Source: a virus. From it: a stretch of DNA of 57,972 bases. This document shows, one piece after another, positions 6,011 through 35,432 of the stretch. The notes under the pieces are model-generated. The model was given only the letters and a program-made list of their open reading frames with translations. It made no database searches and had not been told where the DNA came from. The position numbers were made by a program, and so were the translations under genes. The DNA lies in the IMG/VR virus record IMGVR_UViG_3300031227_000047, positions 1-57,972 of that record; one strand, written 5' to 3'. Each line of letters opens with the position of its first letter. Within the stretch, counting starts at the first letter, position 1.

Positions 6011-6123
6011 AATTAAATTCAGGGATATCTTTTATTCCATTTTATGCTTGTTTTTACTCAACTTACTTTCACTTTCTTTCCTATTCTATACTATAATCAT
6101 ATAGGTAAAAACAAGGATAGTCA

Positions 6124-6144
6124 ATGTTTATAAGGGTGTTATGA
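6124..6144 (+). CDS. Conserved mini-ORF, MFIRVL (copy 1)
   Basis: ATG, six codons and TGA, with AAGGA six bases before the ATG. The same mini-ORF and ribosome site occur in the other two regulatory blocks, with one conservative and one synonymous codon change in copy 3. It lies upstream of the strong promoter, so it would be translated only on transcripts starting further upstream. It may be a leader peptide or only part of a protein-binding DNA block; expression is unproven. Confidence 0.3.
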   Translation: MFIRVL

Positions 6145-6179
6145 GTCAAATTTAGTTAGAAATAGAATGAAAATAAAGC

Positions 6180-6208
6180 TTTACATTTTAAAAGGAATGG
6201 TTTATAAT
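6180..6208 (+). promoter_or_regulatory. Sigma-70-type promoter
   Basis: TTTACA, 17 bases, TATAAT: one mismatch to full consensus. It would start transcription near 6215 and drive the accessory/replication run from 6293 onward. Spacing and sequence match the promoters at 19937 and 35370. Confidence 0.85.
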
Positions 6209-6292
6209 AATCTTACATTTGAAGAGCACAGGGAACGAGGCAAAGCGAAAATTTAATAAACCTAACAGCCCGAAAGGGCAAGGAGCTTAGAC

Positions 6293-6541
6293 ATGAAAAC
6301 TTTAGCCAGCAAACTTACAGACACGCTCAAGAAGAACTTTTGGATCCTCCAAGTGGAGCAAGATACTAGCGACGCAACCTTGAGCCGTTATCTCTTCTGG
6401 ACCACCAAAGCAAGTGCTACAGTAACGGCCTGGAAAGATGGAAGGCTTGAGCTTGCAATCAATGGGGTTGCGATTAACATTAGTGCGGTATCGGATTGGG
6501 ATGCACTGGTTAAAGAAGTGACGGCAGGTCTGGCTGCCTAA
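6293..6541 (+). CDS. Hypothetical early protein
   Basis: 82 residues, first gene after promoter 6180, with ribosome site aaggag. No recognised family. The composition looks like a small soluble alpha/beta protein (repeated Trp, no Cys, no membrane segment). The gene is GC-richer than the replication genes, in common with the small genes that follow to 7852. First genes behind strong early promoters are often host-takeover proteins; nothing in the sequence proves that here. Confidence 0.6.
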   Translation: MKTLASKLTDTLKKNFWILQVEQDTSDATLSRYLFWTTKASATVTAWKDGRLELAINGVAINISAVSDWDALVKEVTAGLAA

Positions 6542-6571
6542 CCAGAGGTACACTCTGCGCCTCCCTGGGCA

Positions 6572-6620
6572 CCTTCGCCGAGGGTGTCAAGCGAAACGCA
6601 GAGCAAAGGAGATCGAGACA
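6572..6620 (+). repeat. Dispersed 5' leader repeat, full copy
   Basis: The 29 bases 6572-6600 recur exactly at 35839-35867, and the following CGAAACGCAGAGCAAAGGAGATCGA (6592-6616) recurs at 6936-6960, with variants at 7214-7232, 7396-7409 and 7664-7688. Each copy carries AAAGGAGATCGA as the ribosome site just before an ATG. The block also contains a small CACC/GGTG hairpin. It looks like a shared translation leader that travels with small genes. Confidence 0.75.
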
Positions 6621-6932
6621 ATGACTAAAGAACAAGCAGCCTATTGGCAGGACAAGTTAAAAGATGTTGGTGTATCGTCAAGTATTGAGCCGACAAATAT
6701 CTATTATCTACAATTGGCAGATGGTCGCAGGATCGAAACACGTAACGCAGCCAGCGGCTTCATTGTGACCAAACTAGATGAAATGATATCCAGCAGTACA
6801 AAACTAACGAAAGCTGGACGCGACGGCATCAACAGCGACCCTGGTGATTATTATGCCAGGATCACTGCTATACAGTTTGGCAATCGCACAGTTGATCAAG
6901 TAATTGAATCACTCAACAAACGAGCAAGTTAA
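6621..6932 (+). CDS. Hypothetical early protein
   Basis: 103 residues, preceded by the full leader repeat. No family recognised. It is soluble and mixed alpha/beta, with the pattern YYLQLADGRRIETRNAASGF near residues 28-47. GC-richer than the genome backbone. Its position in a row of small genes behind one promoter and with a common leader suggests an early accessory function, unknown. Confidence 0.6.
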   Translation: MTKEQAAYWQDKLKDVGVSSSIEPTNIYYLQLADGRRIETRNAASGFIVTKLDEMISSSTKLTKAGRDGINSDPGDYYARITAIQFGNRTVDQVIESLNKRAS

Positions 6933-6968
6933 CCTCGAAACGCAGAGCAAAGGAGATCGAAGGTAGCC

Positions 6969-7205
6969 ATGTATCAGATATTCTGGATTTCACGAACTGG
7001 CAGGCATTGGATTGAGACATGCTGTGGCCCGAATGCGATTGAGCGAATTATGAAATGCTATCGGCAACGGATTGAGTGTAGTGTATATTGTAAAGAGGAT
7101 CGGGATGGTGAAAATATTATTGGCGGTGTCCAGAAAGACGATTTTCATCATACACATAATCTGAAATGGATCTGGTGGTACGATTCGATTCTTGAAGAAA
7201 ATTAA
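6969..7205 (+). CDS. Hypothetical early protein
   Basis: 78 residues with five Trp and four Cys (CC near 18-19, later C and YC), possibly metal-binding, but no CxxC pair is present. Preceded by a copy of the leader repeat, here running into ggtagcc before the ATG. No family recognised. Confidence 0.55.
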   Translation: MYQIFWISRTGRHWIETCCGPNAIERIMKCYRQRIECSVYCKEDRDGENIIGGVQKDDFHHTHNLKWIWWYDSILEEN

Positions 7206-7232
7206 AATGCAAAACAAAAGGAGATCGAGACA

Positions 7233-7382
7233 ATGACTGAAGTTGAACAAGCAGAAGCGTTTGTGAGCGAAAAGCTGCATGATAAAGTCGATGCACGGAT
7301 TGAACTTAGCAGAGCCACAATCGCCCTTGAAAAAGCACGCGAGGAACATGAAGAAGTACTTCAAAGAACCTTGACAAATTAG
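7233..7382 (+). CDS. Small coiled-coil protein
   Basis: 49 residues, almost entirely predicted helix with heptad-like charge pattern (LSRATIALEKAREEHEEV). The ATG follows AAAAGGAGATCGAGACA, the standard leader used by its neighbours, which is the main support for so short a gene. Function unknown. Confidence 0.55.
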   Translation: MTEVEQAEAFVSEKLHDKVDARIELSRATIALEKAREEHEEVLQRTLTN

Positions 7383-7409
7383 ACACACAATACGTAAAGG
7401 AGATCGACA

Positions 7410-7658
7410 ATGAGCAGCGTAAACACGACGCGATACAGCTTATGCAAGGCTATTTTTACAGAAAGGCGCGAAGAAACACTTGCGGCAGCGTGGACAGAAT
7501 CTGGGAATTGTATCACGATCCCGTGGGAAAATGATTCGGGACGCGAGAACCTGCATCGGGCGGCACTTGCTTTGTGTGATGAAATGGGATGGAACGGTAA
7601 TTTGGTAGGTGGTTGGACTAACGCTGGTATAGTTTTTGTTTTTGTAGATGTAGCCTAG
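7410..7658 (+). CDS. Hypothetical early protein
   Basis: 82 residues, ribosome site AAAGGAGATCGACA. Soluble, with a hydrophobic C-terminal strand (AGIVFVFVDVA). No recognised motif. Part of the same run of leader-repeat genes. Confidence 0.55.
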   Translation: MSSVNTTRYSLCKAIFTERREETLAAAWTESGNCITIPWENDSGRENLHRAALALCDEMGWNGNLVGGWTNAGIVFVFVDVA

Positions 7659-7693
7659 CCACTGAAACGCAGAGACAAAAGGAGATCGCGACA

Positions 7694-7852
7694 ATGATTG
7701 AAAAAGCAGACAAACAGAAAGAGTGCTCATGTTGTGGCGAGACGTTTACCCCTGTTGGAAGCAGAGCGGCTTGTCCTGACTGCATAGACGCATACGAAAA
7801 CGCTCATGGCGATCCTGTTGTTATGGATATCAGGAAGGAGATTGGATCGTGA
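7694..7852 (+). CDS. Small zinc-ribbon protein
   Basis: 52 residues with CSCCGETF and CPDC, a plausible four-Cys zinc site about 20 residues apart. Start ATG 7694 follows GGAGATCGCGACA in the shared leader. The stop overlaps the next start as GTGA, so the two are coupled. Tiny zinc ribbons in phages often bind host RNA polymerase or nucleic acid; that is family-level expectation only. Confidence 0.6.
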   Translation: MIEKADKQKECSCCGETFTPVGSRAACPDCIDAYENAHGDPVVMDIRKEIGS

Positions 7853-8142
7853 AAATTAACATGTTAAAACTAGCAGAAACAGCCTTAATTTTACGAAGTA
7901 TTGCAACAAAAATTGCAGCTGTCTCTATGAGAGTTGCCCCCATCACTAGACAAAATTACTCAGTATTAGCCTTTAATATGGCTCAGACTGAAATCAATAG
8001 TCTTAATACGATCAAGCCCTGCGATGAAGAAAATGTTAAGAAATATCTTGGTGTTAGTTTAACTCATATGCAACAGAAAACATCAAGAAGATTGCAACGA
8101 GCCATTGATATTTGGGAAAACGAACAAAAGGAGGAAAGATGA
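7849..8142 (+). CDS. Hypothetical helical protein
   Basis: 97 residues, GTG start with AAGGAG upstream, overlapping the preceding stop. Predicted mostly helical and basic (SRRLQRAIDIWENEQKEER at the C-terminus). AT-rich, unlike the GC-richer genes before it, so the backbone composition resumes here. No family recognised. Confidence 0.5.
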   Translation: MKINMLKLAETALILRSIATKIAAVSMRVAPITRQNYSVLAFNMAQTEINSLNTIKPCDEENVKKYLGVSLTHMQQKTSRRLQRAIDIWENEQKEER

Positions 8143-8336
8143 AAAGGGTTAAGCACACATGTGAAGCTCTAAAGGCAGTAAGTGGATGGGAAACTTGTGG
8201 TAAACCGGCTCGTTTTTGTGTTTGGTTTAGTCCTATTCATTACGCAGAAAAAACTTATTATTGCCAACAGCATTTACCAAAAAGAGAAGAGTGGACAGAC
8301 AGACTCATAATAAAAGTGGAGGAAATCAGAACATGA
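8139..8336 (+). CDS. Small Cys/His-containing protein
   Basis: 65 residues. Cys and His spaced as HTCEAL, TCGKPARFC and YYCQQHL, suggesting one zinc site. ATG 8139 overlaps the preceding stop (ATGA) and follows AAAGGAGGAAAG, so it is preferred to an earlier in-frame ATG at 8112. The stop in turn overlaps the next ATG at 8333. Function unknown. Confidence 0.55.
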   Translation: MKRVKHTCEALKAVSGWETCGKPARFCVWFSPIHYAEKTYYCQQHLPKREEWTDRLIIKVEEIRT

Positions 8337-8662
8337 ATTTTTATGCAACAGTTCGACTATCAACCAAATTGTATATGGCTAGAAAGGAAATGTCTTCAGC
8401 CAGACTCGGAAAGGAATTAGGAGTAACCAGCGTTACTATTGGTTCATTCCTTTTCAGAAAGAATCCTTCCCGTTTAACTAAAAAAGTCATGGAAAAGTTG
8501 ATTTTGATTCTCCAAGAAAACGAGATTTTAAAAGAGAATCTTACAAAAGAAGGTGTTAATTACATGATCTTAGAAATGGAATATTTGAAAAAAGCTTATA
8601 TGAAAAAGAAGCATATTGGCCGAACCCTGAAAGTTTTTTCTGATGCAGAATTGGAAGCTTAA
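8333..8662 (+). CDS. Helix-turn-helix DNA-binding protein
   Basis: 109 residues. Residues 15-50 read as an XRE-like helix-turn-helix: RKEMSSARLGKELGVTSVTI with a recognition helix around GVTSVTIGSFLF. The C-terminal half is a helical, lysine-rich dimerisation-like region. Start chosen at the ATGA overlap with the upstream gene. It precedes the SNF2 helicase gene, overlapping it by 20 bases. It could regulate this operon; no operator was identified. Confidence 0.6.
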   Translation: MNFYATVRLSTKLYMARKEMSSARLGKELGVTSVTIGSFLFRKNPSRLTKKVMEKLILILQENEILKENLTKEGVNYMILEMEYLKKAYMKKKHIGRTLKVFSDAELEA

Positions 8663-10028
8663 ACATATCAAAAAACGGCTTGGAAGAAAGCTCTGGAAAT
8701 CCTTACGTCCATATCAGAGAAAAGGTGTTTCCTTCTTAGAGTACAAGAACGGGAGGGCACTTCTCGCCGATGATATGGGGCTTGGAAAGACTTTACAGGT
8801 TTTAGCCTGGCTCAGGCTCCATCCAAAGAAAAAAGCCGTTGTAGTCATGCCAGCGGTAGTTAAATGGAAATGGAAAGATGAAGTAGAAAAATGGACACCG
8901 GAAAGAAAAGTGGAAGTACTTTCCAGTAGAACTCCACATAGGATCAAGCTTTCCAAAAACTTACTCTTGATTAACTATGACATACTTCATGATTGGATAA
9001 ATGAGATCAAGATATGGGGGCCTGATGTTTTGGTTGTGGATGAGGCACACTATATCAAGAACGGAAAAACCAAGCGCACCAAGGCAGTTTATAAACTTCA
9101 TCATTTGTGTGAGCATTTTATTCCTCTTACAGGAACTCCGGTTGTGAATGCTCCTGTTGAGTTCTTCCAGATTTTGAAACGATTGGATCCTACTTTGTTT
9201 CCGAGTTTCTGGAAATATGCTCATAGATATTGTGCTGCAAAGCATAATGGGTTTGGTTGGGATTTTAAAGGCGCTTCCAACGAAGAGGAATTACATGAAA
9301 AGATTTCAAAGGAAAAGCGGTTGATGATTCGGCGTTTGAAAGAAGAGGTACAAGATCAAATGCCGGATATAGTAAAAACTGTACTCCCACTGAAATTGAA
9401 TTCCAAATCCTATGATATAGCTTTGTCTGATTTCAAAAAGAATGTATTCAAAAAAGACAAAACGACAGCAAACATTCTGGCTGAAATCTCAGAGTTGAGG
9501 CAAAATACTTTACAGATGAAATTACCGATGGTAGCGCAATGGTTGGAGGATTTCTTAGAAGATGGAGATCAAAAAATCGTAGTTTTTGGTCATCATAAAA
9601 TTGGCATAAATTTTTTGATGGATCACTTCGGGAAATTGGCTATCCGGATTGATGGATCGGTTCCTGTTAAAAAGCGCCATGAAGATGTGCAAAGGTTCAA
9701 TACCGATCCAAAAATCAGAATGGTTGCAGGAAATCTGAAAGCGGCTGGAGTAGGAATTGACTTAATCGGAGCCTCAAACGTATTATTTATTGAGCTTCCT
9801 TGGTCGCCGGCGGATTTAAAACAGGCCACGGATAGAATCAATCGAATCGGGCAAACAGCTAAAACCATTTTTGTGTACTATATGTTGGTAAAAGATTCTA
9901 TTGAAATGGACATGATGGATTTGATTGATTCAAAAGCTAAAGTACTTTCTCAGGTTTTGGATGGGAAGCAAATTGAGAAACAGGATTTGTTGAAAACTTT
10001 ATTAAAACGTTACAGAAAAGGAAACTGA
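8643..10028 (+). CDS. SNF2-family DNA-dependent ATPase/helicase
   Basis: 461 residues, superfamily 2 SWI/SNF-like ATPase. Motifs in order are Q-like LRPYQRKGV (21-29), Walker A DDMGLGKT (43-50), Walker B DEAH (about 132), motif III LTGTP (about 162), and C-lobe motif VI QATDRINRIGQ (about 393-403), all with intact key residues. Length fits compact phage/SMARCAL1-type enzymes that anneal, remodel or translocate on DNA at forks. No extra nuclease or HARP domain is visible. It lies upstream of the replication genes and probably acts in fork or recombination processing. Confidence 0.9.
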   Translation: MQNWKLKHIKKRLGRKLWKSLRPYQRKGVSFLEYKNGRALLADDMGLGKTLQVLAWLRLHPKKKAVVVMPAVVKWKWKDEVEKWTPERKVEVLSSRTPHRIKLSKNLLLINYDILHDWINEIKIWGPDVLVVDEAHYIKNGKTKRTKAVYKLHHLCEHFIPLTGTPVVNAPVEFFQILKRLDPTLFPSFWKYAHRYCAAKHNGFGWDFKGASNEEELHEKISKEKRLMIRRLKEEVQDQMPDIVKTVLPLKLNSKSYDIALSDFKKNVFKKDKTTANILAEISELRQNTLQMKLPMVAQWLEDFLEDGDQKIVVFGHHKIGINFLMDHFGKLAIRIDGSVPVKKRHEDVQRFNTDPKIRMVAGNLKAAGVGIDLIGASNVLFIELPWSPADLKQATDRINRIGQTAKTIFVYYMLVKDSIEMDMMDLIDSKAKVLSQVLDGKQIEKQDLLKTLLKRYRKGN

Positions 10029-10029
10029 C

Positions 10030-10299: not shown

Positions 10300-10300
10300 C

Positions 10301-10564
10301 ATGAGCAAACACACACCGGGGCCGTGGAGTCACGAATTCGGATACGTCTATATGGGGGCATTACAAATATGTAAATTGTTATGTGGCACCAAGTCGCGCG
10401 AGGAAACCAACGCCAACGCCCGCTTGATAGTCGCCGCGCCTGAAATGCTGGAGGCGTTGGAAATGGCGCAAAATTGGCTTGAGGAGGTTGTTTTTGAGGA
10501 GTGTGATTATAACCCCGTAAGACAAATAAAAGCTGCAATCACCAAGGCGAAAGGGGAAATCTAA
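10301..10564 (+). CDS. SKHTPGPW-family small phage protein (copy 2)
   Basis: 87 residues, MSKHTPGPW start and ANARLIVAAPEMLEALEMA block, paralogous to the gene just upstream and similar in the central ALQICKLLCG segment. Role unknown in the family. Stop overlaps the next ATG (10564). A further fragment starting MTSKHTGE survives at 39158. Confidence 0.75.
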   Translation: MSKHTPGPWSHEFGYVYMGALQICKLLCGTKSREETNANARLIVAAPEMLEALEMAQNWLEEVVFEECDYNPVRQIKAAITKAKGEI

Positions 10565-10770: not shown

Positions 10771-10772
10771 TT

Positions 10773-11444
10773 ATGAATGAAGATACGTATATCCGAAATA
10801 GTGACGGAGTTGAAGTTGAAGCAATTCAATTCGATGGGACAAAAAAAAGCGCCGCCAAAATTATGGCGCGGCGCGGTGTTAGTGAATATCTTGTTATACA
10901 AGACGCTTTTGCTACAGGTATTGTTTATTCATTGCCAAATCAAGAGTGCAGAGAGGAGTTGTTTAAAGGGAGTTGGCTTGTCAAATGGCCAAATGGTGAT
11001 TGGTCAATTGTTCTTGATATTGAGAAGGATTTCCACCGTCCCGAATCGCCCGAACGGGCCAAACTCAAAGCACAAGTAAAAGCTCTTGATGATTCAATTA
11101 TTCATTGGATGGAAAATTTATCGCTTCTAGAAAAGATTAATGTTGATTCAAATACTTGTGCGTGCTGTGCTTTATCACCAGAAGGTAAGGCCCCGGTATG
11201 TAGTCTTTGCCCTATATTTCAGAAAACTAAGCAAACAGGTTGTGTGAACACACCTTGGCGAAAAGCAGCGGATTGTTTAAGTAACGCATCGCTCGCTTTT
11301 GATGATGAAATTCAATTTCTATGTGGGATTCGATATGAATTACAGACCCGACTTGATGACAGTGCTGTTTTTGCCAATCTATTGAAGCGGTTCACAGAAA
11401 CAATTAGAAAGATAGAAGCAAAAAAATCTGAAAAGGATACTTGA
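10773..11444 (+). CDS. Two-part phage protein: EAIQF-type domain plus Cys-rich domain (paralogue A)
   Basis: 223 residues. The N-terminal part has VEAIQFDGTKKSAAKIMARR, followed by a strand ending GSWLVKWPNGDWSI. This resembles the small phage domain seen with AIQ(F/W)xG and W(L/I)VK...G. The C-terminal part is Cys-rich: CACCALSPEG, CSLCPIFQKTKQTGC and TPWRKAADC, a likely zinc or structural-Cys module followed by a helical tail. It is a clear paralogue of 14904-15548 and shares its N-terminal part with 21151-21540. Function unknown. Confidence 0.6.
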   Translation: MNEDTYIRNSDGVEVEAIQFDGTKKSAAKIMARRGVSEYLVIQDAFATGIVYSLPNQECREELFKGSWLVKWPNGDWSIVLDIEKDFHRPESPERAKLKAQVKALDDSIIHWMENLSLLEKINVDSNTCACCALSPEGKAPVCSLCPIFQKTKQTGCVNTPWRKAADCLSNASLAFDDEIQFLCGIRYELQTRLDDSAVFANLLKRFTETIRKIEAKKSEKDT

Positions 11445-11963: not shown

Positions 11964-12458
11964 ATGACAGATTCACAGTTTCAGGATTTTATAGGATTAG
12001 TAAGAGAAAGAGCTTCTCAATTCAAAAGAAAAGTTTGTGGATTGGAATTTGAGGATTTGGAACAAGAAGGCTGGTTATTATTCATACACAAAGTGCTTCC
12101 AAATTTTGATGAAGCAAACGATACCAAACTTTCAACCTATTTTTATTCAGCACTCACTCACAAATTTATGTCTCTCACTAGTTATCATTCAAGGCGGATT
12201 TGTGAAGCTTTAAATCCAGCCATAGCAGCCCCGGTTGAAAAGCTAAGTATCTATCTGAGATTGGAACTTTCAGAAAAATCCTTGGAAGTTATTCATCTTT
12301 TGCTAGAGGAAAGCGTAGAATTGTATGGGGAAGGAATAAAGGAAATTCCAAAGCCAACTTTGGGTTTGATAAGAAATGCTTTGAGAAATCGAGGATGGAC
12401 ACATAAAGATATTGCAAGTTCATTCAAAGAAATAAAAGGAGCTTTAGCTTCATTGTGA
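11964..12458 (+). CDS. RNA polymerase sigma-factor-like protein
   Basis: 164 residues. The N-terminal half resembles sigma region 2: EFEDLEQEGWLLFIHKVLPN followed by KLSTYFYSALTHKFMSL, where the FEDLEQEGW helix and the aromatic YFY segment are typical. The C-terminal part ends in a helix-turn-helix-like stretch (NALRNRGWTHKDIASSF) like region 4. Compact two-region sigma-like proteins occur in phages and direct host polymerase to phage promoters. The thrice-repeated promoters still look like host sigma-70 sites, so its targets may be others, such as the structural operon. Its last ten codons lie in a 31-bp repeat. Confidence 0.6.
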   Translation: MTDSQFQDFIGLVRERASQFKRKVCGLEFEDLEQEGWLLFIHKVLPNFDEANDTKLSTYFYSALTHKFMSLTSYHSRRICEALNPAIAAPVEKLSIYLRLELSEKSLEVIHLLLEESVELYGEGIKEIPKPTLGLIRNALRNRGWTHKDIASSFKEIKGALASL

Positions 12459-14903: not shown

Positions 14904-15548
14904 ATGAAAAATGAAAATGGTTCAAAAACTTACAATTGGATAGGTCACGGGATCCGAGTAACAGCACTTCAATTCAACGGCACAAATGCTCAAGCTGTAA
15001 TGGCGTTTCGTTGTTTAACATTTGAGGATTACCACCTTGCTTATGATGAAAATAATAATGTTATTGCGATTGTGTATTCTGTTCCTGTCGTGCCTCTTTG
15101 TCGTTTTAACAAAACCGATTGGTTTGTTAAAACGAATGATGGCAAATTTAAAAGATATAATGATCATGACTTCAATAATATCTACACTCTCGTGGATAGT
15201 ATTTGCTTTCCATTCTCGCTCTTGGAGTTAAAAGTGCAATTACGAGCTGTCAATGACTTGATTAAACATTGGAAACACAACTTAGTTCAATTAGAAGAAA
15301 TAAAAGTCCAAGGGGATTCTTGTACCTGTTGTGCTTTTTCGCCTCAAGGCGATCTATGCCATTCTTGTCCTATATTTCAAAAAACTAAACTAGATGCCTG
15401 TAAGGGTACGCCTTGGGGCCAGGCATATGATTGTCTTAAGATTGCAAAAACTGCATTTGAAAAGGAAATCGCCTTTTTGCATAACATTCGATCCGAACTA
15501 CAGGTTAAAGTTAATGAACATGAAAGTAAAAAGAAAAGATCTGAATAA
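14904..15548 (+). CDS. Two-part phage protein: EAIQF-type domain plus Cys-rich domain (paralogue B)
   Basis: 214 residues, with a strong ribosome site. N-terminal VTALQFNGTNAQAVMAF and TDWFVKTNDGKFKRY parallel the gene at 10773. The C-terminal Cys module CTCCAFSPQGDLCHSCP, IFQKTKLDAC and TPWGQAYDC is nearly the same as in that paralogue, and both end in a basic tail. The two copies flank the methyltransferase/primase stretch. Function unknown; the strict Cys spacing implies metal binding. Confidence 0.6.
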   Translation: MKNENGSKTYNWIGHGIRVTALQFNGTNAQAVMAFRCLTFEDYHLAYDENNNVIAIVYSVPVVPLCRFNKTDWFVKTNDGKFKRYNDHDFNNIYTLVDSICFPFSLLELKVQLRAVNDLIKHWKHNLVQLEEIKVQGDSCTCCAFSPQGDLCHSCPIFQKTKLDACKGTPWGQAYDCLKIAKTAFEKEIAFLHNIRSELQVKVNEHESKKKRSE

Positions 15549-15551
15549 TTT

Positions 15552-15583
15552 CACTTTACTTTCAAAGTGATTTGATATATAAT
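15552..15583 (+). promoter_or_regulatory. Sigma-70-type promoter with overlapping dyad
   Basis: TTTACT (15555-15560), 17 bases, TATAAT (15578-15583). The -35 box is embedded in the inverted repeat CACTTT-ACTTTC-AAAGTG (15552-15569), a plausible repressor operator. Transcription would begin near 15590, in a gene-free stretch. Confidence 0.75.
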
Positions 15584-15589
15584 AAATTT

Positions 15590-15730
15590 GACGATCAAGG
15601 TAAGCGACAATATGCGAAGTACAAAAAATCAAATCAATATAAAAACCCTTGCGGGGTTGGTGCGGGTTCTTGTCTCGTCAAACAAGATTCGCTTTTGTCG
15701 CACCTGTACCACCCCGCAAGGGTTTTTTGT
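15590..15730 (+). ncRNA. Candidate small RNA with nested-stem 3' terminator
   Basis: A promoter at 15555 and a strong terminator ending near 15728 bracket about 140 bases with no convincing gene. Three stacked helices can be read: 15641-15656 with 15712-15727 (16 bp, perfect), 15659-15664 with 15699-15704 (GGTGCG/CGCACC), and 15668-15673 with 15682-15687 (TCTTGT/ACAAGA, loop CTCGTCAA). The T-run then follows. It does not fold as a tRNA. It might be a free small RNA or a regulated leader of the initiator gene at 15747. Confidence 0.55.
15641..15728 (+). terminator. Strong bidirectional-looking terminator
   Basis: The outer 16-bp stem AAAAACCCTTGCGGGG/CCCCGCAAGGGTTTTT has A-run and T-run flanks, so it could stop transcription in both directions. 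It lies just 19 bases before the initiator gene, which would therefore need antitermination, read-through or its own start. Confidence 0.75.
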
Positions 15731-15746
15731 ATTTATGAGATGAAGA

Positions 15747-18050: not shown

Positions 18051-19573
18051 TAAGTAGAAGAAAGATTTCAGATAGTAAGGAATTGCAAATTTTAACAGCC
18101 GCTATTCACAGCGAGGGTTTTCTACTTCACCTCATTTCCTTGTATCAGCCGGGTTTGTTTGTAGACGAAAAAATAGACCTGATTTTATCTTGGTGCTTTG
18201 CTTATTTTGAAAAGTATGATAAGGCTCCAAAGGGTCATATTTGGGATTTGTTTTTGCAGGAAATGGATTCTGGAAAAATGAGGGATTCAATTTCTGAGTT
18301 GATTGAGAAAATCTTGGTCAAGGTAGATAAGATTTTAGAGCAAGGATTCAATGAAGCTTTTGTTAAGGATCTATGCTCTGATTTTTTTAGGGGAAAGGCT
18401 TTAGGAAATTTGACAGATAAGATTTCTGAGGCTGTAGATGGAGGTGAAGAGGAAGAAGCATTAAAGCATTTAGAAGAATTTTCCCTTCCCTGTAAAGAAA
18501 AAGCATATGTTGAACCGTTTCTTGATCCAGAATTGATTCGGGAAGCATTCGAGTTCAAATCAGTTCCTCTTTTTTCGTTTAAGGGTGCTTTAGGGGAATT
18601 GGTCAATCCATTTCTAACGAGAGATTCGTTTCTGAGTTTTATGGGGCCAGAAAAAAGAGGAAAAACTTGGTGGCTATTTGAATTTGCTATTCGGGCTTTG
18701 TTTGCTAGAAGGAAAGTAGCTTTTTTTCAGGTTGGTGATATGAGTGAGGATCAAGGAATTCGTAGAATGTTTACCCGGCTTGCTGGAAAGCCTAGCAGAG
18801 AAATGGATTGTGGGGAAATCCTAATTCCTGTTTTGGATTGTAAAAGTAATCAGGATGGAAGTTGTCCATCAACGCACAGAAAAAATGAAATCACGCTTTT
18901 GGATTCTGAAGGAGAAAAACCTTCATGGGAATCAAGGCCAAAAAGATATAAACCATGTACCAGATGTGAAAATCGAGGTATCAAATTTCCAGGGGCTTCA
19001 TGGTTTAAAAAAGTTCAGTATAAGGATGTTTTGGATTGGCGGGGAAGTGTCACTTTATCTGAAAAATTTCAGAGTCGGATTAAAGGTGGAAATTTTAGGT
19101 TGAGTACGCATTCAAATGGTTCAATTTCTGTATCAGATATTAGCAGAATTGTGAAGGGATGGAAAAAAGAGGGATGGATTCCAGATGTTATAGCAATTGA
19201 TTATGCAGATATTTTGGCTCCAGAAAAAAGTCATAAAGATCCGCGATATCAGGAAAATGAAAAATGGAAAGCACTAAGAAGATTATCACAGGATTATTCT
19301 TGCTTGGTTTTGACGGCTACTCAGTCTGCTACAAGTTCCTATGATTCAGATGATTTGAAACTTGGGGACTTTTCAGAGGACAAAAGAAAATATTCCCACG
19401 TAACAGGAATGCTTGCCTTGAATCAAAACAAAGAAGAAAAGCAGGAAGGGATTATGAGATTGGGTTGGTTAGTTTTGCGGGAAGGAGGATTCGCCGCATA
19501 TCGACAAGTAGCTTGTTTGCAATCATTAGTGTGTGGCCGTCCATATTTGGATGGGTATTGGGTAAATAGATAA
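18047..19573 (+). CDS. DnaB-like replicative helicase with Cys-rich insertion
   Basis: 508 residues. An N-terminal helical domain is followed by a RecA-type core with a Walker A variant GPEKRGKT (about 199-206), an IAIDYADIL Walker B strand (about 382-390) and the TATQSA sensor strand. This order fits DnaB-family helicases. Between the Walker A and B there is an insertion of about 50 residues with CKSNQDGSC and CTRCENRG (about 264-310), which looks like a zinc site and is not part of standard DnaB. It is translated from the overlap with the loader gene. It should unwind DNA at the fork 5' to 3', by family analogy. Confidence 0.8.
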   Translation: MISRRKISDSKELQILTAAIHSEGFLLHLISLYQPGLFVDEKIDLILSWCFAYFEKYDKAPKGHIWDLFLQEMDSGKMRDSISELIEKILVKVDKILEQGFNEAFVKDLCSDFFRGKALGNLTDKISEAVDGGEEEEALKHLEEFSLPCKEKAYVEPFLDPELIREAFEFKSVPLFSFKGALGELVNPFLTRDSFLSFMGPEKRGKTWWLFEFAIRALFARRKVAFFQVGDMSEDQGIRRMFTRLAGKPSREMDCGEILIPVLDCKSNQDGSCPSTHRKNEITLLDSEGEKPSWESRPKRYKPCTRCENRGIKFPGASWFKKVQYKDVLDWRGSVTLSEKFQSRIKGGNFRLSTHSNGSISVSDISRIVKGWKKEGWIPDVIAIDYADILAPEKSHKDPRYQENEKWKALRRLSQDYSCLVLTATQSATSSYDSDDLKLGDFSEDKRKYSHVTGMLALNQNKEEKQEGIMRLGWLVLREGGFAAYRQVACLQSLVCGRPYLDGYWVNR

Positions 19574-19770: not shown

Positions 19771-19802
19771 TCCCATTTTAATTAAAAAAGCATATAAAAA
19801 TG

Positions 19803-19834
19803 CTCTGAGAATGGTAATTCTTAGGGTTTTTCTT
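19803..19834 (+). terminator. Rho-independent terminator
   Basis: CTCTGAGAAT (19803-19812) pairs with ATTCTTAGGG (19817-19826) across a GGTA loop with two G-U pairs, followed by tttttcttt. Its near twin stands at 35236 before regulatory block 3. Confidence 0.8.
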
Positions 19835-19879
19835 TATCATTCTGTATTATAACTATACAATCAAAAACAAGGATAGTCA

Positions 19880-19900
19880 ATGTTTATAAGGGTGTTATGA
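19880..19900 (+). CDS. Conserved mini-ORF, MFIRVL (copy 2)
   Basis: Identical 7-codon frame to that at 6124, with AAGGA six bases before the ATG. Translation is unproven. Confidence 0.3.
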   Translation: MFIRVL

Positions 19901-19936
19901 GCTAAATTTAGGTGAAAATAAAAGCAAAAATAAAGC

Positions 19937-19965
19937 TTTACTTTTGTAAAGATATACATTATAAT
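19937..19965 (+). promoter_or_regulatory. Sigma-70-type promoter
   Basis: TTTACT, 17 bases, TATAAT. Drives the operon from 20003, which includes DUF932, clamp, polymerase and recombination genes. Confidence 0.85.
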
Positions 19966-20002
19966 AATCTTACATTTGAAGCAAAACAAAGGAGACAAGG
20001 AA

Positions 20003-21556: not shown

Positions 21557-21597
21557 AGTGTAGAGGGTTGAAACCAACCCTCTACACTTCCTTTTTG
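21557..21597 (+). terminator. Strong Rho-independent terminator
   Basis: A perfect 14-bp stem (21557-21570 with 21575-21588) closes a four-base loop AAAC and is followed by tccttttt. It divides this operon; the genes after it must rely on read-through or an unrecognised promoter. Confidence 0.9.
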
Positions 21598-27233: not shown

Positions 27234-27415
27234 TAGACCCTCAATTTATATTTATAGGTTTTATTAGTGGGATTTTTGGAATTGCTATTGTGTTTTATTT
27301 AGTGCCGATAGTTCTACGTTTTTGGACTATGCAGATAAGTGCTGGTTGGATTTTAGGAAAGAAAGTAGAAACAGAAACAGAAAAAGGAGAAAAGAAAGAT
27401 GGGAAAGAGAAGTAA
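27230..27415 (+). CDS. Small single-span membrane protein
   Basis: 61 residues. One transmembrane helix (IFIGFISGIFGIAIVFYLVP) and a lysine/glutamate tail. Overlaps both neighbours by a few bases. Function unknown. Confidence 0.55.
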   Translation: MIDPQFIFIGFISGIFGIAIVFYLVPIVLRFWTMQISAGWILGKKVETETEKGEKKDGKEK

Positions 27416-28919
27416 AAAGAAAGCACATACAAAGTCAATGAGAGATCGTGTTCGGTCTCATGCGAAAGAGTCAAGAAGCGGCTCCAGTTGTTTGACTTTA
27501 CCAAAGGGCACAGAGGTTTTTTGGCCGGATGATAAGGGAAGGTATTTTATAAATGTCATTCCTTATCGGGTTTCAAGCGATCATCACCCGGATGGAATTG
27601 ATAAGGGTGATTTGTGGTATCGGCGTCCGTATCAATTGCATTTTATTGATCGGAAAGCTGTAGTCTGTCCAAGGTCAATTGGGAAAAAGTGTCCTATTTG
27701 TGAAGAGGTGGATCGCCTATCACGGGATTTTGAAACAAACAAAGAAGTCATTCAACCAATTCGAGCAAAGAAAATGTGCTTGTTCAATATCATCGATGCG
27801 GATGATAAGAAAAAGACAATCAGAGTTTTTGATTGGTCTGCTTACAAATTTGCTGCTGATTTGGAACAGGAGTTGGATGAAGGTGAACTTGAAAATTGTG
27901 GCTTTGCGGATCTAACGGATGGATCTACTGTCCGATTCCGTGTTACTGAGGATTCCTTTGCTGGACACAAGTTTTTGAAAACGACTCGGATTGATTTCAT
28001 TGAAAGAGAGGATTATCCAGAGTCGATTTTGGATGATGTTGTGGATTTGGACACAGTTTTGAAAGTTATGTCCTATAAGGAAATCAAGAAGCTTTTCTTT
28101 GATATGGAAGAAGATGACGGTGATGAAGATGAAACCCCGAAAAGTAAAAAGGGGAAAAAGGTTGAAGAAGAGGAAGAAGATTTCGATGAAGATGAAGAGG
28201 AAGAGGAAGAGGAAGAGGATGAAGAGGAAGAGGAAGAGGCTCCGAAAAGTAAAAAGAGAAAGAAGGTAAAAAAAGAAGAAGAAGAAGAAGAGGAGAATGA
28301 AGATCTTGATTCTGATTTCGATGAGGATGAGGATGAGGATGAGGATGAGGATGAGGATGAGGATGAGGATGAGGATGATGGTGTTACAAAGCCTGAAGTT
28401 TCCCTTCCCGATGTGGATGAAATTTCTAGCATGAAGAAAAAAGGGATCTTGGAATTGTTGGTTGAAAGTGGAAAAGAGATGGGAAGCACCAAGCGAATCA
28501 AGATGCTCCAGAAAATGAAAGTAAAGGAGCTTAGAGCTTACGTTACAGAGTTATTGGAAGATGATGATGATGATGATGATGATGGGGATCTTGATTCTGA
28601 TTTCGACGATGACGACGATGATCTGGAAGAAGAAGGGGCTGGTTTTGGTAAAAAAGATGATGATGAAGAGGATGATGATTTTACCGAAGAGGAAACACAT
28701 CTTCCCGATGCAGATGATATCAAGATGATGAAGAAAAAAGAGATCTTGGAATTGTTAAAGCTAAAAAGAGAGTTGGGAAATTACAAAAAACCTAAAGATC
28801 TTCAGAAAATGAAAGTAAAGGAGCTTAGGGCTTACGTCATAGAGTTGTTGGAAGAAGAAGAAGATGAAGATGAAGATCTTGATTCTCATTTCGACGACGA
28901 TGATGATGACGATGAATAG
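27399..28919 (+). CDS. ssDNA-binding protein (gp32-like) with acidic tail and two SAP-like repeats
   Basis: 506 residues. Residues about 30-230 resemble the T4 gp32-type OB fold with its zinc site: CPRSIGKKCPICEEV (about 89-103) and an aromatic, basic first half. A long Asp/Glu tail follows. Embedded in the tail are two related 50-residue helical units, about 335-386 (MKKKGILELL ... KMKVKELRAYVTELL) and about 434-484 (MKKKEILELL ... KMKVKELRAYVIELL), each like a SAP-type helix-extension-helix. T4 gp32 is about 300 residues and has one short acidic tail, so this is a large elaboration. It precedes the recombinase gene, as expected for the replication/recombination SSB. Confidence 0.75.
   Translation: MGKRSKKKAHTKSMRDRVRSHAKESRSGSSCLTLPKGTEVFWPDDKGRYFINVIPYRVSSDHHPDGIDKGDLWYRRPYQLHFIDRKAVVCPRSIGKKCPICEEVDRLSRDFETNKEVIQPIRAKKMCLFNIIDADDKKKTIRVFDWSAYKFAADLEQELDEGELENCGFADLTDGSTVRFRVTEDSFAGHKFLKTTRIDFIEREDYPESILDDVVDLDTVLKVMSYKEIKKLFFDMEEDDGDEDETPKSKKGKKVEEEEEDFDEDEEEEEEEEDEEEEEEAPKSKKRKKVKKEEEEEEENEDLDSDFDEDEDEDEDEDEDEDEDEDDGVTKPEVSLPDVDEISSMKKKGILELLVESGKEMGSTKRIKMLQKMKVKELRAYVTELLEDDDDDDDDGDLDSDFDDDDDDLEEEGAGFGKKDDDEEDDDFTEEETHLPDADDIKMMKKKEILELLKLKRELGNYKKPKDLQKMKVKELRAYVIELLEEEEDEDEDLDSHFDDDDDDDE
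28320..28376 (+). repeat. Hexanucleotide microsatellite (GATGAG)n in SSB tail
   Basis: About nine tandem GATGAG units encoding alternating Asp-Glu. Slippage would alter tail length in steps of two residues without a frame change. Confidence 0.85.
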
Positions 28920-30973: not shown

Positions 30974-31493
30974 GAATTCCAAGGCTAAAGGTTCAGCATT
31001 CGAGCGTGAAATTTGCAAGAAGTTGAATAAGTGGTGGGCACCGGGTGTAGCAGATCAAGTTTTTTGGAGGTCTGCTTCCTCTGGTGGAAGAGCTACGGTT
31101 TCTGGAAACGTGGATCAATATGGAGACATATGTGCTATCCATCCTTTAGGATTTGATTTTACAAAGAAGGTAATAATCGAAGCTAAAAAAGGTTATGGAA
31201 CTTGGAGTCCTTTTGATTGTATCGACGGATTAAGCGGGGTTTGGGATAAGTTCATAACTCAGGTTGAACGGGATAAAGCAGCTTCTAATAGACCTTATTT
31301 TTGGCTGATATTTCAAAGACCAAGGCGCAAGCCGGTTTTGGTTACATCTGTATCTTTTTATAAGAAATATTATTCAGAGAAATTTCAGAAAGCAAAGACT
31401 AAGTGTATTATTAGATCACAAGGAAGAAGGTTAGTAGCTATGACATTCGATGATTTTTTAAGCACTTGTCCATCAAGAAATATGAGGGACTAA
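30966..31493 (+). CDS. PD-(D/E)XK nuclease, Holliday-junction-resolvase-like
   Basis: 175 residues. KGSAFEREICKKL (conserved E), FWRSASSGGRAT, QYGDICAI (D) and KKVIIEAKKGYG (ExK) give the complete core of a restriction-fold nuclease. The arrangement is like phage resolvase/endonuclease proteins of the RecU/Hjc kind. Location after recombinase and flap nuclease fits branch resolution. Specificity cannot be told from sequence. Confidence 0.75.
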   Translation: MAKNSKAKGSAFEREICKKLNKWWAPGVADQVFWRSASSGGRATVSGNVDQYGDICAIHPLGFDFTKKVIIEAKKGYGTWSPFDCIDGLSGVWDKFITQVERDKAASNRPYFWLIFQRPRRKPVLVTSVSFYKKYYSEKFQKAKTKCIIRSQGRRLVAMTFDDFLSTCPSRNMRD

Positions 31494-31505
31494 GGAGAAT
31501 ATAAA

Positions 31506-31784
31506 ATGCGTAAGATAAGTTCACTTTCAATTATTACTGTTTTCTTGTGTGTATTTGTTTCTTTTCTTATTATTTTATCTGGTAGTCATCTTAGTTGGGC
31601 TGTAGGTATTGTTATTATGCTTTGGGTTTTTTGTGGCTATGGGGCTTTGGTTTACACTTTTTATATTATGTATGCTAGTGTAGGAAGAAGAAAAAGTGAA
31701 GAAGAACTAATCACTTTTGCTTGTTTTGCAACTTTAGTTTTGGGATTGATTATGTTTCTTACATACAAAGTGTTGAGTCCATGA
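31506..31784 (+). CDS. Three-span membrane protein
   Basis: 92 residues with three hydrophobic helices (SIITVFLCVFVSFLIILSG; SWAVGIVIMLWVFCGYGALV; FACFATLVLGLIMFLTYKVL) and a short charged loop. Good ribosome site. No family recognised; its place inside the recombination operon is odd. Confidence 0.6.
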   Translation: MRKISSLSIITVFLCVFVSFLIILSGSHLSWAVGIVIMLWVFCGYGALVYTFYIMYASVGRRKSEEELITFACFATLVLGLIMFLTYKVLSP

Positions 31785-32842
31785 TTACTCGATTGGCTTT
31801 ATCAGGATTTCAAAATCATAAGAAAACCAACATAAGATTAGATCCTATTACTGTTTTTAAGGGGAAATCCGATCAAGGAAAATCAGCGATAATCCGGGCT
31901 TTGTATTGGCTGATTTTCAATAAGCCTAATGGCGTTTCAGATTGGATTTATGAAGGCAAGAAACGAATGAGGGTAAGGATCAAAACGAGTGAAGGGGATA
32001 TAATAGAAAGAAATCGCTCGAAATCTGATGCCGGCATTTACAAGTTGAATGAAGAAGAATTTCATGCTATGGGTTTTTCAGTTCCTTCCCCGATAGCTGA
32101 TATATTGAATATTGAATCTCTAAATTTCTCTACTCAGTTTGACGGCCCTTTTTTGTTGAACTTATCCAGGCCGGAAGCTTCCCGGTATTTATCAAACTTG
32201 GTTGGATTAGAGCAGATGGATTTGGTGATGGGGAAGGTGAATCAGTGGAAACGATTCACAGCAAAAGAAATCGAAATCCATGAAAAACTTCGATTGAAGG
32301 TTCAAGAAGATTTAGAAGAGTTAAAATCTTTACCAAAGGCCTTGAAACAATTTCAAAAAATAGAAAAGGAGGTATCAAGTTATGAAAAGTTGGAAAAGGA
32401 TATTGAGGAGCTTGAAAATTCTCTTTCAAGCCATGATCAATTACATCATAGTTTTGATCCGTTACAAATGGTTGAACCGGCCATTCAAACCGTAAATGAA
32501 CTGGAAAGTGATTTTTGGAAAGTTGAAAGTTTCAAAGAAGAAAATATCATGTTGTTTTCTTGGGTTACGGCATTGAAACGGATTAAGGAGACGTACAAGG
32601 GATTAAAACAGGTGGTAAGTGCTCGAAAACAGCTCGTAACGTTAGATTCAAGCTCACATAACATATTATCACTAGAAAAAGGAGTTCATTCGTTACAGGG
32701 GATTGTAGAGAGGTTTTCAAAAGTTGAGAATCCGATTCCTTTCCTTAAAAAAGAGATAAAAGTGTTACAAGAAAAATGGAAGGAGTCCACAAAAGGATTC
32801 TGTCCTACTTGCGGTAAACGTATAATTGAGAAAGGGATTTAA
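31781..32842 (+). CDS. SbcC/gp46-like ATPase, N-terminal half
   Basis: 353 residues. LSGFQNHKKTNI and Walker A KGKSDQGKS (about 26-34) form the N-terminal ATP-binding lobe; a coiled coil follows, ending in CPTCGKRI (about 340), the zinc-hook motif. The chain stops there, whereas SbcC/Rad50 continues through a returning coil to Walker B. The missing C-terminal lobe is encoded at 34002. ATG 31781 is used; the earlier TTG lies inside the membrane-protein gene. Confidence 0.85.
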   Translation: MITRLALSGFQNHKKTNIRLDPITVFKGKSDQGKSAIIRALYWLIFNKPNGVSDWIYEGKKRMRVRIKTSEGDIIERNRSKSDAGIYKLNEEEFHAMGFSVPSPIADILNIESLNFSTQFDGPFLLNLSRPEASRYLSNLVGLEQMDLVMGKVNQWKRFTAKEIEIHEKLRLKVQEDLEELKSLPKALKQFQKIEKEVSSYEKLEKDIEELENSLSSHDQLHHSFDPLQMVEPAIQTVNELESDFWKVESFKEENIMLFSWVTALKRIKETYKGLKQVVSARKQLVTLDSSSHNILSLEKGVHSLQGIVERFSKVENPIPFLKKEIKVLQEKWKESTKGFCPTCGKRIIEKGI

Positions 32843-32845
32843 GTT

Positions 32846-33760
32846 ATGAGTAAAAGAAAACCGATTGGATTGTTTGTTTCAGATTTGCATTTGTCATCTA
32901 AAAGACCCTCATGCCGGGTGGATGATTGGATAAGAGTGCAGGAAGATTTACTATACAGAATTTCTGGTATAGCTGCAAAATATCAGGTTCCTATTTTTGC
33001 TTGTGGAGACATATTTGACAAGCCAAAAGAAGATCCTGTAATTGAGGCTTTGGCTATTAGGTGGATGAAAAAAAATAAATGGTATGGGATTCCTGGACAG
33101 CATGATTTGCCGGGGCATTCATTAAGTCGGATAGGAGAGTCTTCTTTTGGGGTTTTAATGGAAGCTGGAGTTTTACAATATGTGGAAGGCACAGGGCATG
33201 TAGATGATTTTTTAATCACTGGATTCCCTTATGGAATACATGCTACTTGTGCTGTTGATTCAAATAAATTAAAGGTTGCCATAGCTCATGAAATGGTGTG
33301 GAGAAAGCAACCGTTTCCAGGCGCTCCAGAAAAAGGGAATGTGAAAAAGCTTGTAAAGCGGTATCCGGGATTTGATGTTTTAGTTTTTGGGGATAATCAC
33401 AAAGGATTTTCTACAAGAGTAAAAGGCGTTTCCATTTTGAATTGTGGAACAGCTTTGCAAAGGACTGTAGTAGAACATGACTATTTTACGCAATGCTTTC
33501 TTCTTTATAGTGATGGTTCTCATAAAAGTATTCCATATATTCTTCAGTCTTCTTGGAGAACAGTGGATTTGGATTTGGCTAAGAGGGAAAAAGCTCTTGA
33601 TGATCGTATACGGGCTTTTGTAAAAACCATTCAAGGTGATAAGGAAGTTTCTTTGTCCTTCATTGACAACTTAAAAGAGTATCTGGAAAGTTCAGAGGTT
33701 TCCGATTCTGTAAAAGAAGTTATTTGGAAAGCTATGGAGGAAGTTGAAAGCAATGGATGA
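32846..33760 (+). CDS. SbcD/Mre11-like nuclease (gp47-type)
   Basis: 304 residues, calcineurin-like phosphoesterase. Metal-binding motifs are SDLHLSSKR (about 12), GDIFDKP (about 51), GQHD (about 90), AHEM and GDNHKG (about 181-186). It should pair with the split SbcC subunits as a DNA-end-processing nuclease that feeds the recombinase. It lies between the two SbcC halves. Confidence 0.9.
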   Translation: MSKRKPIGLFVSDLHLSSKRPSCRVDDWIRVQEDLLYRISGIAAKYQVPIFACGDIFDKPKEDPVIEALAIRWMKKNKWYGIPGQHDLPGHSLSRIGESSFGVLMEAGVLQYVEGTGHVDDFLITGFPYGIHATCAVDSNKLKVAIAHEMVWRKQPFPGAPEKGNVKKLVKRYPGFDVLVFGDNHKGFSTRVKGVSILNCGTALQRTVVEHDYFTQCFLLYSDGSHKSIPYILQSSWRTVDLDLAKREKALDDRIRAFVKTIQGDKEVSLSFIDNLKEYLESSEVSDSVKEVIWKAMEEVESNG

Positions 33761-33989
33761 AAAGTTAGCTAAGTTAAAAAAGAAAATCGAAGCAAAGGAA
33801 AAAGAGAAGATAGAACTTGAAGGGAGAATGTCTCAAATTCTATCGGATCTTAAAGCTAAGTTTGATATTGAAACGATAGAAGATGCGAAGTCTTTATTGA
33901 AAGAAAAACAAGAGGAACACAAAAGCAAAAGTAGAAAGCTTCAGAAAAGAATTGAGGATTTTGAAGAAGAGTTTGCAGATTTACTTTAA
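33753..33989 (+). CDS. Small coiled-coil protein between SbcD and SbcC C-half
   Basis: 78 residues, entirely helical with heptad-like Lys/Glu pattern (AKLKKKIEAKEKEKIELEGR; HKSKSRKLQKRIEDFEEEF). It could stand for part of the returning SbcC coil, or be a separate bridging subunit. ATG 33753 with GGAGG upstream. Confidence 0.6.
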   Translation: MDEKLAKLKKKIEAKEKEKIELEGRMSQILSDLKAKFDIETIEDAKSLLKEKQEEHKSKSRKLQKRIEDFEEEFADLL

Positions 33990-34001
33990 GGATTTTTGAA
34001 A

Positions 34002-34619
34002 ATGTCCTTTGATTTTCAGACACGAAAAATAAAAGAGAAATTGTTGGTAGAGGCTGCCCGATTTGAAAGTTTAGAAGAACAAAGAAAAAAATTGGAAAAA
34101 GAAATTATAGATTTAAGGGTTCAAAATGTAAATCAGGAAACGGCTCAGGGAATCCTACAAGAAATAGTTCAAGTTACTCAGGAACAGATCACGATTCATT
34201 TGAATGAATTGGTTTCCTCTTGTTTATCCTCGATTTTTAATGAGCCTTACATTTTCAAAATGTCCTATGTTCAAAAAAGGGGAAAGACAGAAGTAGAATA
34301 TGAATTGCAAAGGGGGAATTTAATTTGTGATGATCCATTACATTCAGTTGGTGGAGGGGTGATTGATGTGATTTCATTTGCTTTGAGAATAGCAGCTCTT
34401 TTGATTTCTGTAAAGCATCCAAGAAAAGTTTTGTTTTTGGATGAACCGTTTCGGTTTTTGTCGAAAGAATATCAATCGGCTTGTGGTTTATTAATGGAAG
34501 AGTTATCAGCTCGATTGGGGATTCAGTTTGTAATAATTACACATGAAGAATCTTTGGTGGAGTATGTGAAAAGTTTAACTTACCTGGTTGAGAATGGAAA
34601 AGTGGAAAAGGAGAATTGA
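34002..34619 (+). CDS. SbcC/gp46-like ATPase, C-terminal half
   Basis: 205 residues. A short coil, then the ABC signature variant VGGGVIDVISFALRIA (about 112-127), Walker B VLFLDEPFRFLS (about 142-153) and switch His ITHEE (about 178). These are exactly the parts missing from 31781-32842. ATG 34002 follows AAGGA at good spacing. The two halves presumably assemble into one ATPase head in trans. Confidence 0.85.
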   Translation: MSFDFQTRKIKEKLLVEAARFESLEEQRKKLEKEIIDLRVQNVNQETAQGILQEIVQVTQEQITIHLNELVSSCLSSIFNEPYIFKMSYVQKRGKTEVEYELQRGNLICDDPLHSVGGGVIDVISFALRIAALLISVKHPRKVLFLDEPFRFLSKEYQSACGLLMEELSARLGIQFVIITHEESLVEYVKSLTYLVENGKVEKEN

Positions 34620-34621
34620 AA

Positions 34622-34885
34622 ATGAATATCTGGGGAAAATCCAATAGAATAAGTGTAAGAAGAAATCATATTCCTTGGATGAATGCAGGAGCGGAAACTT
34701 CGGTTGCAGAAGTTTTTGCTTTTATAAAGGAAGTGCTACCGGAAGTGGATTTTGTTGAATTTGTTGAAAGAGATTATTTGGATTCCTATTATTTAAGTAA
34801 TAAGTCCGGTTCGATTCGGATGGTAATCCAGAAGGAACATCAATTAAAAAATAGTAAGCGCAAAAAGATTCTTAACATGACTTAG
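34622..34885 (+). CDS. Hypothetical protein (tandem paralogue 1)
   Basis: 87 residues. Shares with the next gene the pattern NPWM.A-like IPWMNAGAETSVAEVFAFI and a basic C-terminus ending Met-Thr. No family recognised. ATG 34622 with AAAGGAG. Confidence 0.55.
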   Translation: MNIWGKSNRISVRRNHIPWMNAGAETSVAEVFAFIKEVLPEVDFVEFVERDYLDSYYLSNKSGSIRMVIQKEHQLKNSKRKKILNMT

Positions 34886-34923
34886 TCCCATCTTGATTAA
34901 AAAGAGGAAAAGGAGGATTGAAA

Positions 34924-35205
34924 ATGAAAAGTACATTATGGAAAACTCCTATTACGGTATCAGTGAATAAAAGCCCTTGGATGAAGGCAAGAGTGGGGAT
35001 TACTATTCCTGAGATTCTTGAATTTTTCTACGAGACGTTTCCAGAACTGAAGGCAAAGAATGCAAAGGGCGCTAAGATGTGGAGTGGGGATGGGTTCGTT
35101 GAGTACATTTTAGAAAGTAGATTGGAAACCATTCGGGTTTTAATCAGGCAGGAGAATCCTAAAAGAAAGCATAAAGGAAAGAAAAAGACTGTATACATGA
35201 CTTAA
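34924..35205 (+). CDS. Hypothetical protein (tandem paralogue 2)
   Basis: 93 residues. SPWMKARVGITIPEILEFF, then IRVLIRQE and a lysine-rich tail ending MT, aligned with the preceding gene; the start contexts (gga-ttgaaaATG) and the sequences after both stops (acttagtccca/acttaatctta) also match, so a tandem duplication is likely. Function unknown. Confidence 0.55.
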   Translation: MKSTLWKTPITVSVNKSPWMKARVGITIPEILEFFYETFPELKAKNAKGAKMWSGDGFVEYILESRLETIRVLIRQENPKRKHKGKKKTVYMT

Positions 35206-35235
35206 TCTTATTTTAGTTAAAAAAGCACATAAAAT

Positions 35236-35270
35236 GCTCTGAGAATGGTAATTCTTAGAGCTTTTCTTTA
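35236..35270 (+). terminator. Rho-independent terminator
   Basis: GCTCTGAGAAT (35236-35246), loop GGTA, ATTCTTAGAGC (35251-35261), then ttttcttt. One G-U pair. Same structure as 19803. Confidence 0.85.
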
Positions 35271-35313
35271 TCATTCTATACTATATTTATATAATCAAAA
35301 ACAAGGATAGTCA

Positions 35314-35334
35314 ATGTTTACAAGGGTATTATGA
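35314..35334 (+). CDS. Conserved mini-ORF, MFTRVL (copy 3)
   Basis: Same length and ribosome site as the copies at 6124 and 19880. One codon changes Ile to Thr and one Val codon is changed silently. Translation unproven. Confidence 0.3.
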   Translation: MFTRVL

Positions 35335-35369
35335 GTCAAATTTAGTTGAAAATAAAAGTAAAATAAAGC

Positions 35370-35398
35370 TTTACTTTTGGAAACAAACCCTTTATAAT
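35370..35398 (+). promoter_or_regulatory. Sigma-70-type promoter
   Basis: TTTACT, 17 bases, TATAAT. Drives the accessory region from 35433. Confidence 0.85.
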
Positions 35399-35432
35399 GT
35401 AGTTACATTTGAAGCAAACAAGGAGCGAAACA

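Follow-up and report, generated by a model that had tools for sequence, protein, structure and literature searches.

In the PAK_P1-like phages, repeats of 41 nt act as phage promoters present in a few copies, and the conservation around their -35 and -10 boxes has been called unusual (PMC4309531). Cluster K mycobacteriophages carry SAS/ESAS, conserved sequences that recur at gene starts, are extended at some of these sites and include 17-bp inverted repeats (PMC3203893), while in phages 7-11 and phiEco32 host and phage-specific promoters divide the genome (PMC4331800). In phage T4, gp55 resembles sigma factors in domain 2 only and reads an 8-bp TATA-type promoter lacking a -35 box, and late promoters use gp55, gp33 and the clamp (PMC2988020). 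The locus analysed here lies in a virus record of 57,972 bases (IMGVR_UViG_3300031227_000047, "the window"), the + strand of which carries nearly all plausible genes. Like the PAK_P1-type repeats, it consists of one promoter sequence present a few times, with conservation around the -35 and -10 boxes and perhaps specific to one phage group, and at least two intergenic copies of one sequence containing both boxes are present, as in that type. Unlike the PAK_P1 repeats, which are the 41-nt promoter itself and belong to the early region, the present element spans 150 nt, heads three large units, comes with terminators and has its 39-nt core between -108 and -70. It shares with SAS/ESAS the repetition of conserved sequences upstream of phage genes, but those elements stand at the translation starts of many small genes and contain inverted repeats, whereas no dyad is found here and the 17-bp imperfect inverted repeats of ESAS are absent from the core. 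The promoter classes that occupy separate sites in 7-11 and phiEco32 would here be stacked in one cassette. Compared with known repeated phage promoters, the element is new in its length, in its position at unit heads and in an upstream module that is also employed by itself in relatives.

Three paralogous intergenic blocks, A (6073-6224), B (19829-19981) and C (35263-35414), match one another, at precisely the places given in a preliminary description of this DNA. Pairwise blastn aligns B with C over 219 bp (87%, E=1e-68), A with C over 183 bp (79%, E=3e-38) and A with B over 153 bp (82%, E=1e-35). The B/C homology extends from stop codon to ribosome-binding site and includes the terminator, which is common to these two copies and not to A. 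All blocks have the same orientation, with the terminator upstream and a gene downstream, and no fourth copy was found in the window, the next match of a three-block profile having E=1.3. Read from 5' to 3', an intrinsic terminator is followed in each block by a TATA stretch, by the core of 39 nt (AAAAACAAGGATAGTCAATGTTTAYAAGGGTRTTATGAG) and by an A-rich linker of lower conservation; then come the -35 box within AATAAAGCTTTAC, 17 nt of spacer, TATAAT and, around the start predicted for the host-type promoter (here termed P2), TTACATTTGAAG. The core position (about -108 to -70) is counted from that start (Table 1). The promoter boxes and the terminator ahead of each block were confirmed as described, as were the shared transcribed TTACATTTGAAG (12/12 in all three copies) and the distance from ACAAGGATAG to the -10 box, which is 92 in A (6111 to 6203), 93 in B (19867 to 19960) and 92 in C (35301 to 35393). 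The conserved upstream element is likewise real, but its near-invariant part measures 39-40 nt rather than the 60 bases first proposed, the linker towards P2 being conserved to a moderate degree only. The terminator before A had escaped a pattern scan because of its 10-nt loop, the hairpin being seen by folding. AAAGCTTTA resembles the T4 MotA-type box; it lies too far from the -10 box to be a likely site of that type. Promoter-like matches are no commoner in the window than in shuffled sequence, so the evidence lies in the triplicate conservation and not in the match to a consensus.

Table 1. Positions of the block components and of two further features in the window
Feature	Position	Strand	Remarks
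Intrinsic terminator before A (GGGCGTATCAG..CTGATACGTCC TTTTCCTT)	5970..6009	+	sequence; fold z=-6.2 for 5904-6020
Block A, P1 TATA box TATAATCATATA, putative promoter	6092..6103	+	no conserved -35
Block A, conserved core AAAAACAAGGATAGTCAATGTTTATAAGGGTGTTATGAG	6107..6145	+	SD-like AAGGA; mini-ORF 6124-6144 MFIRVL*
Block A, P2 TTTACA-17-TATAAT	6180..6208	+	11/12 matches
Block A, start-site element TTACATTTGAAG	6213..6224	+	predicted +1 about 6215; invariant in three copies
Intrinsic terminator before B	19802..19832	+	fold z=-4.3; homologous to that of C
Block B, P1 TATA box TATAACTATACA, putative promoter	19848..19859	+	
Block B, conserved core	19863..19901	+	mini-ORF 19880-19900 MFIRVL*
Block B, P2 TTTACT-17-TATAAT	19937..19965	+	
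Block B, start-site element TTACATTTGAAG	19970..19981	+	predicted +1 about 19972
Intrinsic terminator before C	35236..35268	+	fold z=-3.6
Block C, P1 TATA box TATATTTATATA, putative promoter	35282..35293	+	
Block C, conserved core	35297..35335	+	mini-ORF 35314-35334 MFTRVL*
Block C, P2 TTTACT-17-TATAAT	35370..35398	+	
Block C, start-site element TTACATTTGAAG	35403..35414	+	predicted +1 about 35405
Lone P2-like promoter TTTACT-17-TATAAT	15555..15583	+	no core
Sigma-70-region-2-only protein, 164 aa, candidate P1 specificity factor	11964..12458	+	Pfam Sigma70_r2 21.7 bits, below cutoff 24

The run headed by block A opens with small early-type genes, a helicase, a sigma-like ORF, a methyltransferase, a primase, a helicase loader and a dnaB-like helicase, and that headed by B with genes for a clamp, a split DNA polymerase, a clamp loader, UvsX-like, exonuclease, RusA-like and SbcC-like proteins. 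The run behind C had been described as accessory, which holds in part: many small genes come first, followed by genes for terminase, portal, capsid and tail up to the right end of the contig. An endolysin gene lies at the left end, before block A, and run C would continue into A if the genome is circularly permuted. Terminator-like hairpins inside the runs (15643-15732, 21557-21588 and 48453-48484) indicate that the genome is not strictly divided into three units. CCTTCGCCGAGGGTGTCAAGCGAAACGCAGAG occurs just after the first gene of runs A and C (6572-6603 and 35839-35870, 97%), and the parallel between these runs therefore extends past the promoter. Within run A, 10773-11441 and 14904-15545 encode paralogous proteins (39% identical) of no known function, and at 15549-15746 the lone P2-like promoter is followed by a non-coding stretch of about 140 nt that ends in a very stable hairpin and a T-run (fold z=-6.1) and has no match in Rfam; this is a probable small RNA gene. 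The ORF at 27399-28919 contains a long acidic repeat tract (28143-28915), the relatives' protein being similar to part of the ORF. Further to the right, an intergenic stretch of 70 nt that holds a small hairpin occurs twice without mismatch, at 39165-39234 and 40006-40075, and at 48424-48527 the strong hairpin at 48453-48484 stands before the capsid genes with a P1-like TATTTCTATAG ahead of it.

Variation among the three copies is distributed unevenly. Variable columns number 12/34 in the TATA part, 3/40 in the core, 8/29 in the linker, 1/14 in the -35 region, 9/17 in the spacer, 0/6 in the -10 box and 0/12 in the start-site element. The core differs strongly from unconstrained DNA, that is, the three unconstrained parts plus the 4-nt discriminator (33/84 variable columns; Fisher p=2e-4), and also from everything else in the block (p=0.0045; p=0.05 in a scan over all windows). 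Conservation so far beyond that of the unconstrained neighbours argues that selection, and not copying alone, maintains the core, and that the copies are old enough for the unconstrained parts to have drifted while the core, the -10 box and the start-site element were kept. The blocks are thus very probably copies of a selected cassette, triplicated to operon heads. The preliminary description had offered a shared regulatory site or an ancient duplication as alternatives; these do not exclude each other, as the copies are paralogous and the core is under selection.

The content of the core bears on its function. It starts a few bases past the TATA stretch and contains AAGGA, followed six bases on by an ATG, a 6-codon ORF, MF(I/T)RVL, and TGA, an arrangement found in 0.6% of dinucleotide shuffles in a post hoc test. 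The core holds no dyad and no consistent direct repeat: dyads and tandem half-sites do not exceed shuffles in A and B, and a direct repeat (8/9, p=0.03) occurs in copy C only. Its predicted RNA fold is no better than that of shuffles (z 0.7, -0.2 and 1.0), and the blocks have no match in Rfam. Because the core has a Shine-Dalgarno ORF and lacks an RNA fold, a dyad or a consistent direct repeat, two tandem promoters are tentatively preferred to a plain operator of P2. Each block would then be one copy of a phage-specific operon-head cassette, consisting of the terminator of the previous unit and two tandem promoters. P2, with A-rich DNA above it, would be read by the host RNA polymerase. Upstream of it, P1 would be a TATA-type promoter lacking a -35 box, its transcript beginning at the edge of the core, which would thereby form a conserved leader with Shine-Dalgarno sequence, short ORF and stop. 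P1 may be used later in infection, probably through a phage sigma-region-2 protein, so that the replication and structural units would stay transcribed once the polymerase has been altered by the phage. The strongest point against P1 is that the TATA region is less conserved than the core, which is odd if P1 needs only a -10 box. No stand-alone P1 was found before the structural genes of the window.

The next reading, judged less likely, is that P1 does not exist and that the core binds a DNA-binding regulator of phage or host, acting on P2 from its upstream position and co-regulating the three units like a small regulon. The better conservation of the core than of the TATA region and its constant distance (92-93 nt) from the -10 box speak for such an operator, as do lone P2-like promoters, such as that at 15555, which lack the core and so mark the latter as a separate module. 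The lack of a dyad and of a consistent direct repeat speaks against it, and among the ORFs searched no repressor or activator candidate besides the sigma-like ORF was found. It is also opposed by two relatives, G001 and G035, in which an upstream block of this kind precedes a gene without any P2. An upstream promoter with a leader fits the data at least as well as the activator, repressor or silencer site suggested earlier. What stands of that suggestion is a set of good promoters at operon heads, preceded by terminators, duplicated and conserved beyond the -35 and -10 boxes; a specific site of this kind does not follow from a core without dyad or consistent direct repeat.

The relatives concerned are distant. 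The collections hold no near relative (24 kb gave no megablast match), and the element has no match in IMG/VR, GTDB genomes, cultured phages, plasmids or relatives at about the 50% level, among which there is no close relative; the exact core pattern is likewise absent from IMG/VR and GTDB genomes. The few IMG/VR matches to an 18-mer of the core and to TATAAT-N4-TTACATTTGAAG all apparently fall within genes of unrelated contigs and were taken as chance, and blastn of block C against phages and plasmids gave short chance matches only. The clamp loader is common to 65 IMG/VR contigs at 38-50%, none of which contains the blocks (nhmmer E above 1), and a viral scan with the dnaB and 20143 proteins yielded no loci. 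G001 (58,137 bp) has a 150-nt block of its own, of unrelated sequence, in three copies (19362-19532 on the - strand, 2022-2173 on the - strand and 43535-43649 on the + strand). Two of these comprise a hairpin, TATATATTTATATAGGG, an A-rich leader, an ATG and then a P2-type CCTTAAATGAAA-N-GTATAAT, a type which recurs alone in G001, G002, G035 and G041. One P2-bearing copy immediately follows dnaB, a position corresponding to that of block B except that B lies one small ORF further on; the other is found close to where the replication module ends. In the third copy P2 is missing, and the block runs up to the ATG of a neck-region gene (122 aa), which is immediately followed by a Neck1-type gene and tail genes. 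A block in G035 matches this copy (nhmmer 6.6e-19); it likewise lacks P2, abuts the start codon of the orthologous gene and conserves the hairpin, AAAATCAATT, the TATA stretch and the A-rich leader. In that branch the upstream part, standing without P2, is most simply a promoter with a leader. The preliminary description had held that related phages conserving only the -35 and -10 boxes would speak against it; the relatives do lack the element, but G001 has an unrelated block of the same architecture with one syntenic copy. A search for repeated intergenic blocks over the complete or almost complete length of 18 contigs (G000-G011 and G035-G040) showed promoter blocks of such length in several copies only in the window and G001, and in none of 16 other related contigs. 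The similarity of the window P1 to that of G001 and G035 is too weak for detection by nhmmer; against the P1 motif of these relatives, one of four sub-motifs and chosen after the fact, the TATA and A-run of the window blocks rank 3, 258 (block B) and 11 among 115,894 positions. By inspection, a QueD-like gene appears to lie next after dnaB in G001 (19350-18943) and likewise in G003, G004, G005, G006, G008 and G009, and was not seen there in the window; its presence in the relatives suggests 7-deazaguanine DNA modification.

A candidate for the protein reading P1 is the sigma-like ORF, located between the genes for helicase and primase here as in the relatives. Its orthologues in G001, G002, G003 and G010, at the same place, score 27.9-44.9 bits with Sigma70_r2, above the cutoff of 24, and the orthologue profile matches PDB chains of sigma factors in their region 2; a structure model of the protein was too poor for a fold search. 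As in the T4 late system, the sigma likeness is confined to region 2 (the orthologues above the Pfam cutoff, the window copy just below it), and genes for a clamp and a clamp loader are present. By its resemblance to gp55, whose promoter also has no -35 box, the protein at 11964-12458 may read the TATA-only P1. The T4 late promoter sequence is TATAAATA, which is not enriched in the window (3 matches against 3.3 expected). Unlike in T4, this sequence does not mark late promoters before the structural genes, and the protein reading P1 is a candidate only.

The remaining explanations fare worse than tandem promoters or an operator. A plain duplication of a promoter region, its conservation due to recent copying or gene conversion only, would account for the B/C homology with its included terminator; it is improbable given the strongly uneven divergence of spacer, core and start-site element. 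A structured RNA or attenuator in the leader transcript is quite improbable: the core would be transcribed if P1 is real, and a leader ORF is present, but the fold does not surpass shuffles, the two core substitutions in C are not compensatory and Rfam gives no match. A divergent promoter, in which a minus-strand TTGACT in the core, 17 nt from TATGAT, TATAGT or TATAAA, fires toward the upstream terminator and yields a short antisense RNA, has minus-strand matches at 6124-6096 and 19880-19852 and terminators of B and C that appear two-faced by inspection; against it, the -10 box differs among the copies, with the poorest version in C, the core reaches past any -35 box and promoter-like matches are no commoner than in shuffles, which makes it highly improbable. 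Least probable of all are replication, packaging or recombination sites, for although three spaced copies stand at unit borders beside replication genes, each keeps a consensus promoter and start-site element in a fixed orientation between terminator and gene.

Taken together, the three blocks have the appearance of a single switch copied to three sites, a familiar type of phage design that is unusually elaborate here. A bolder proposal, which we consider doubtful, is that a phage not belonging to the T4 group stacks a late promoter lacking a -35 box, read by its own region-2-only sigma factor, directly upstream of a host-type promoter and copies the pair to every unit head, and that relatives have rebuilt this layout with unrelated sequence, the layout rather than the sequence being inherited. 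The blocks offer a clean way of splitting an uncultivated phage genome into transcription units, and for a phage group with little-known transcription they bring out a sigma-like gene and candidates for late promoters. They also present a case in which the layout of a promoter may persist while its sequence turns over completely.
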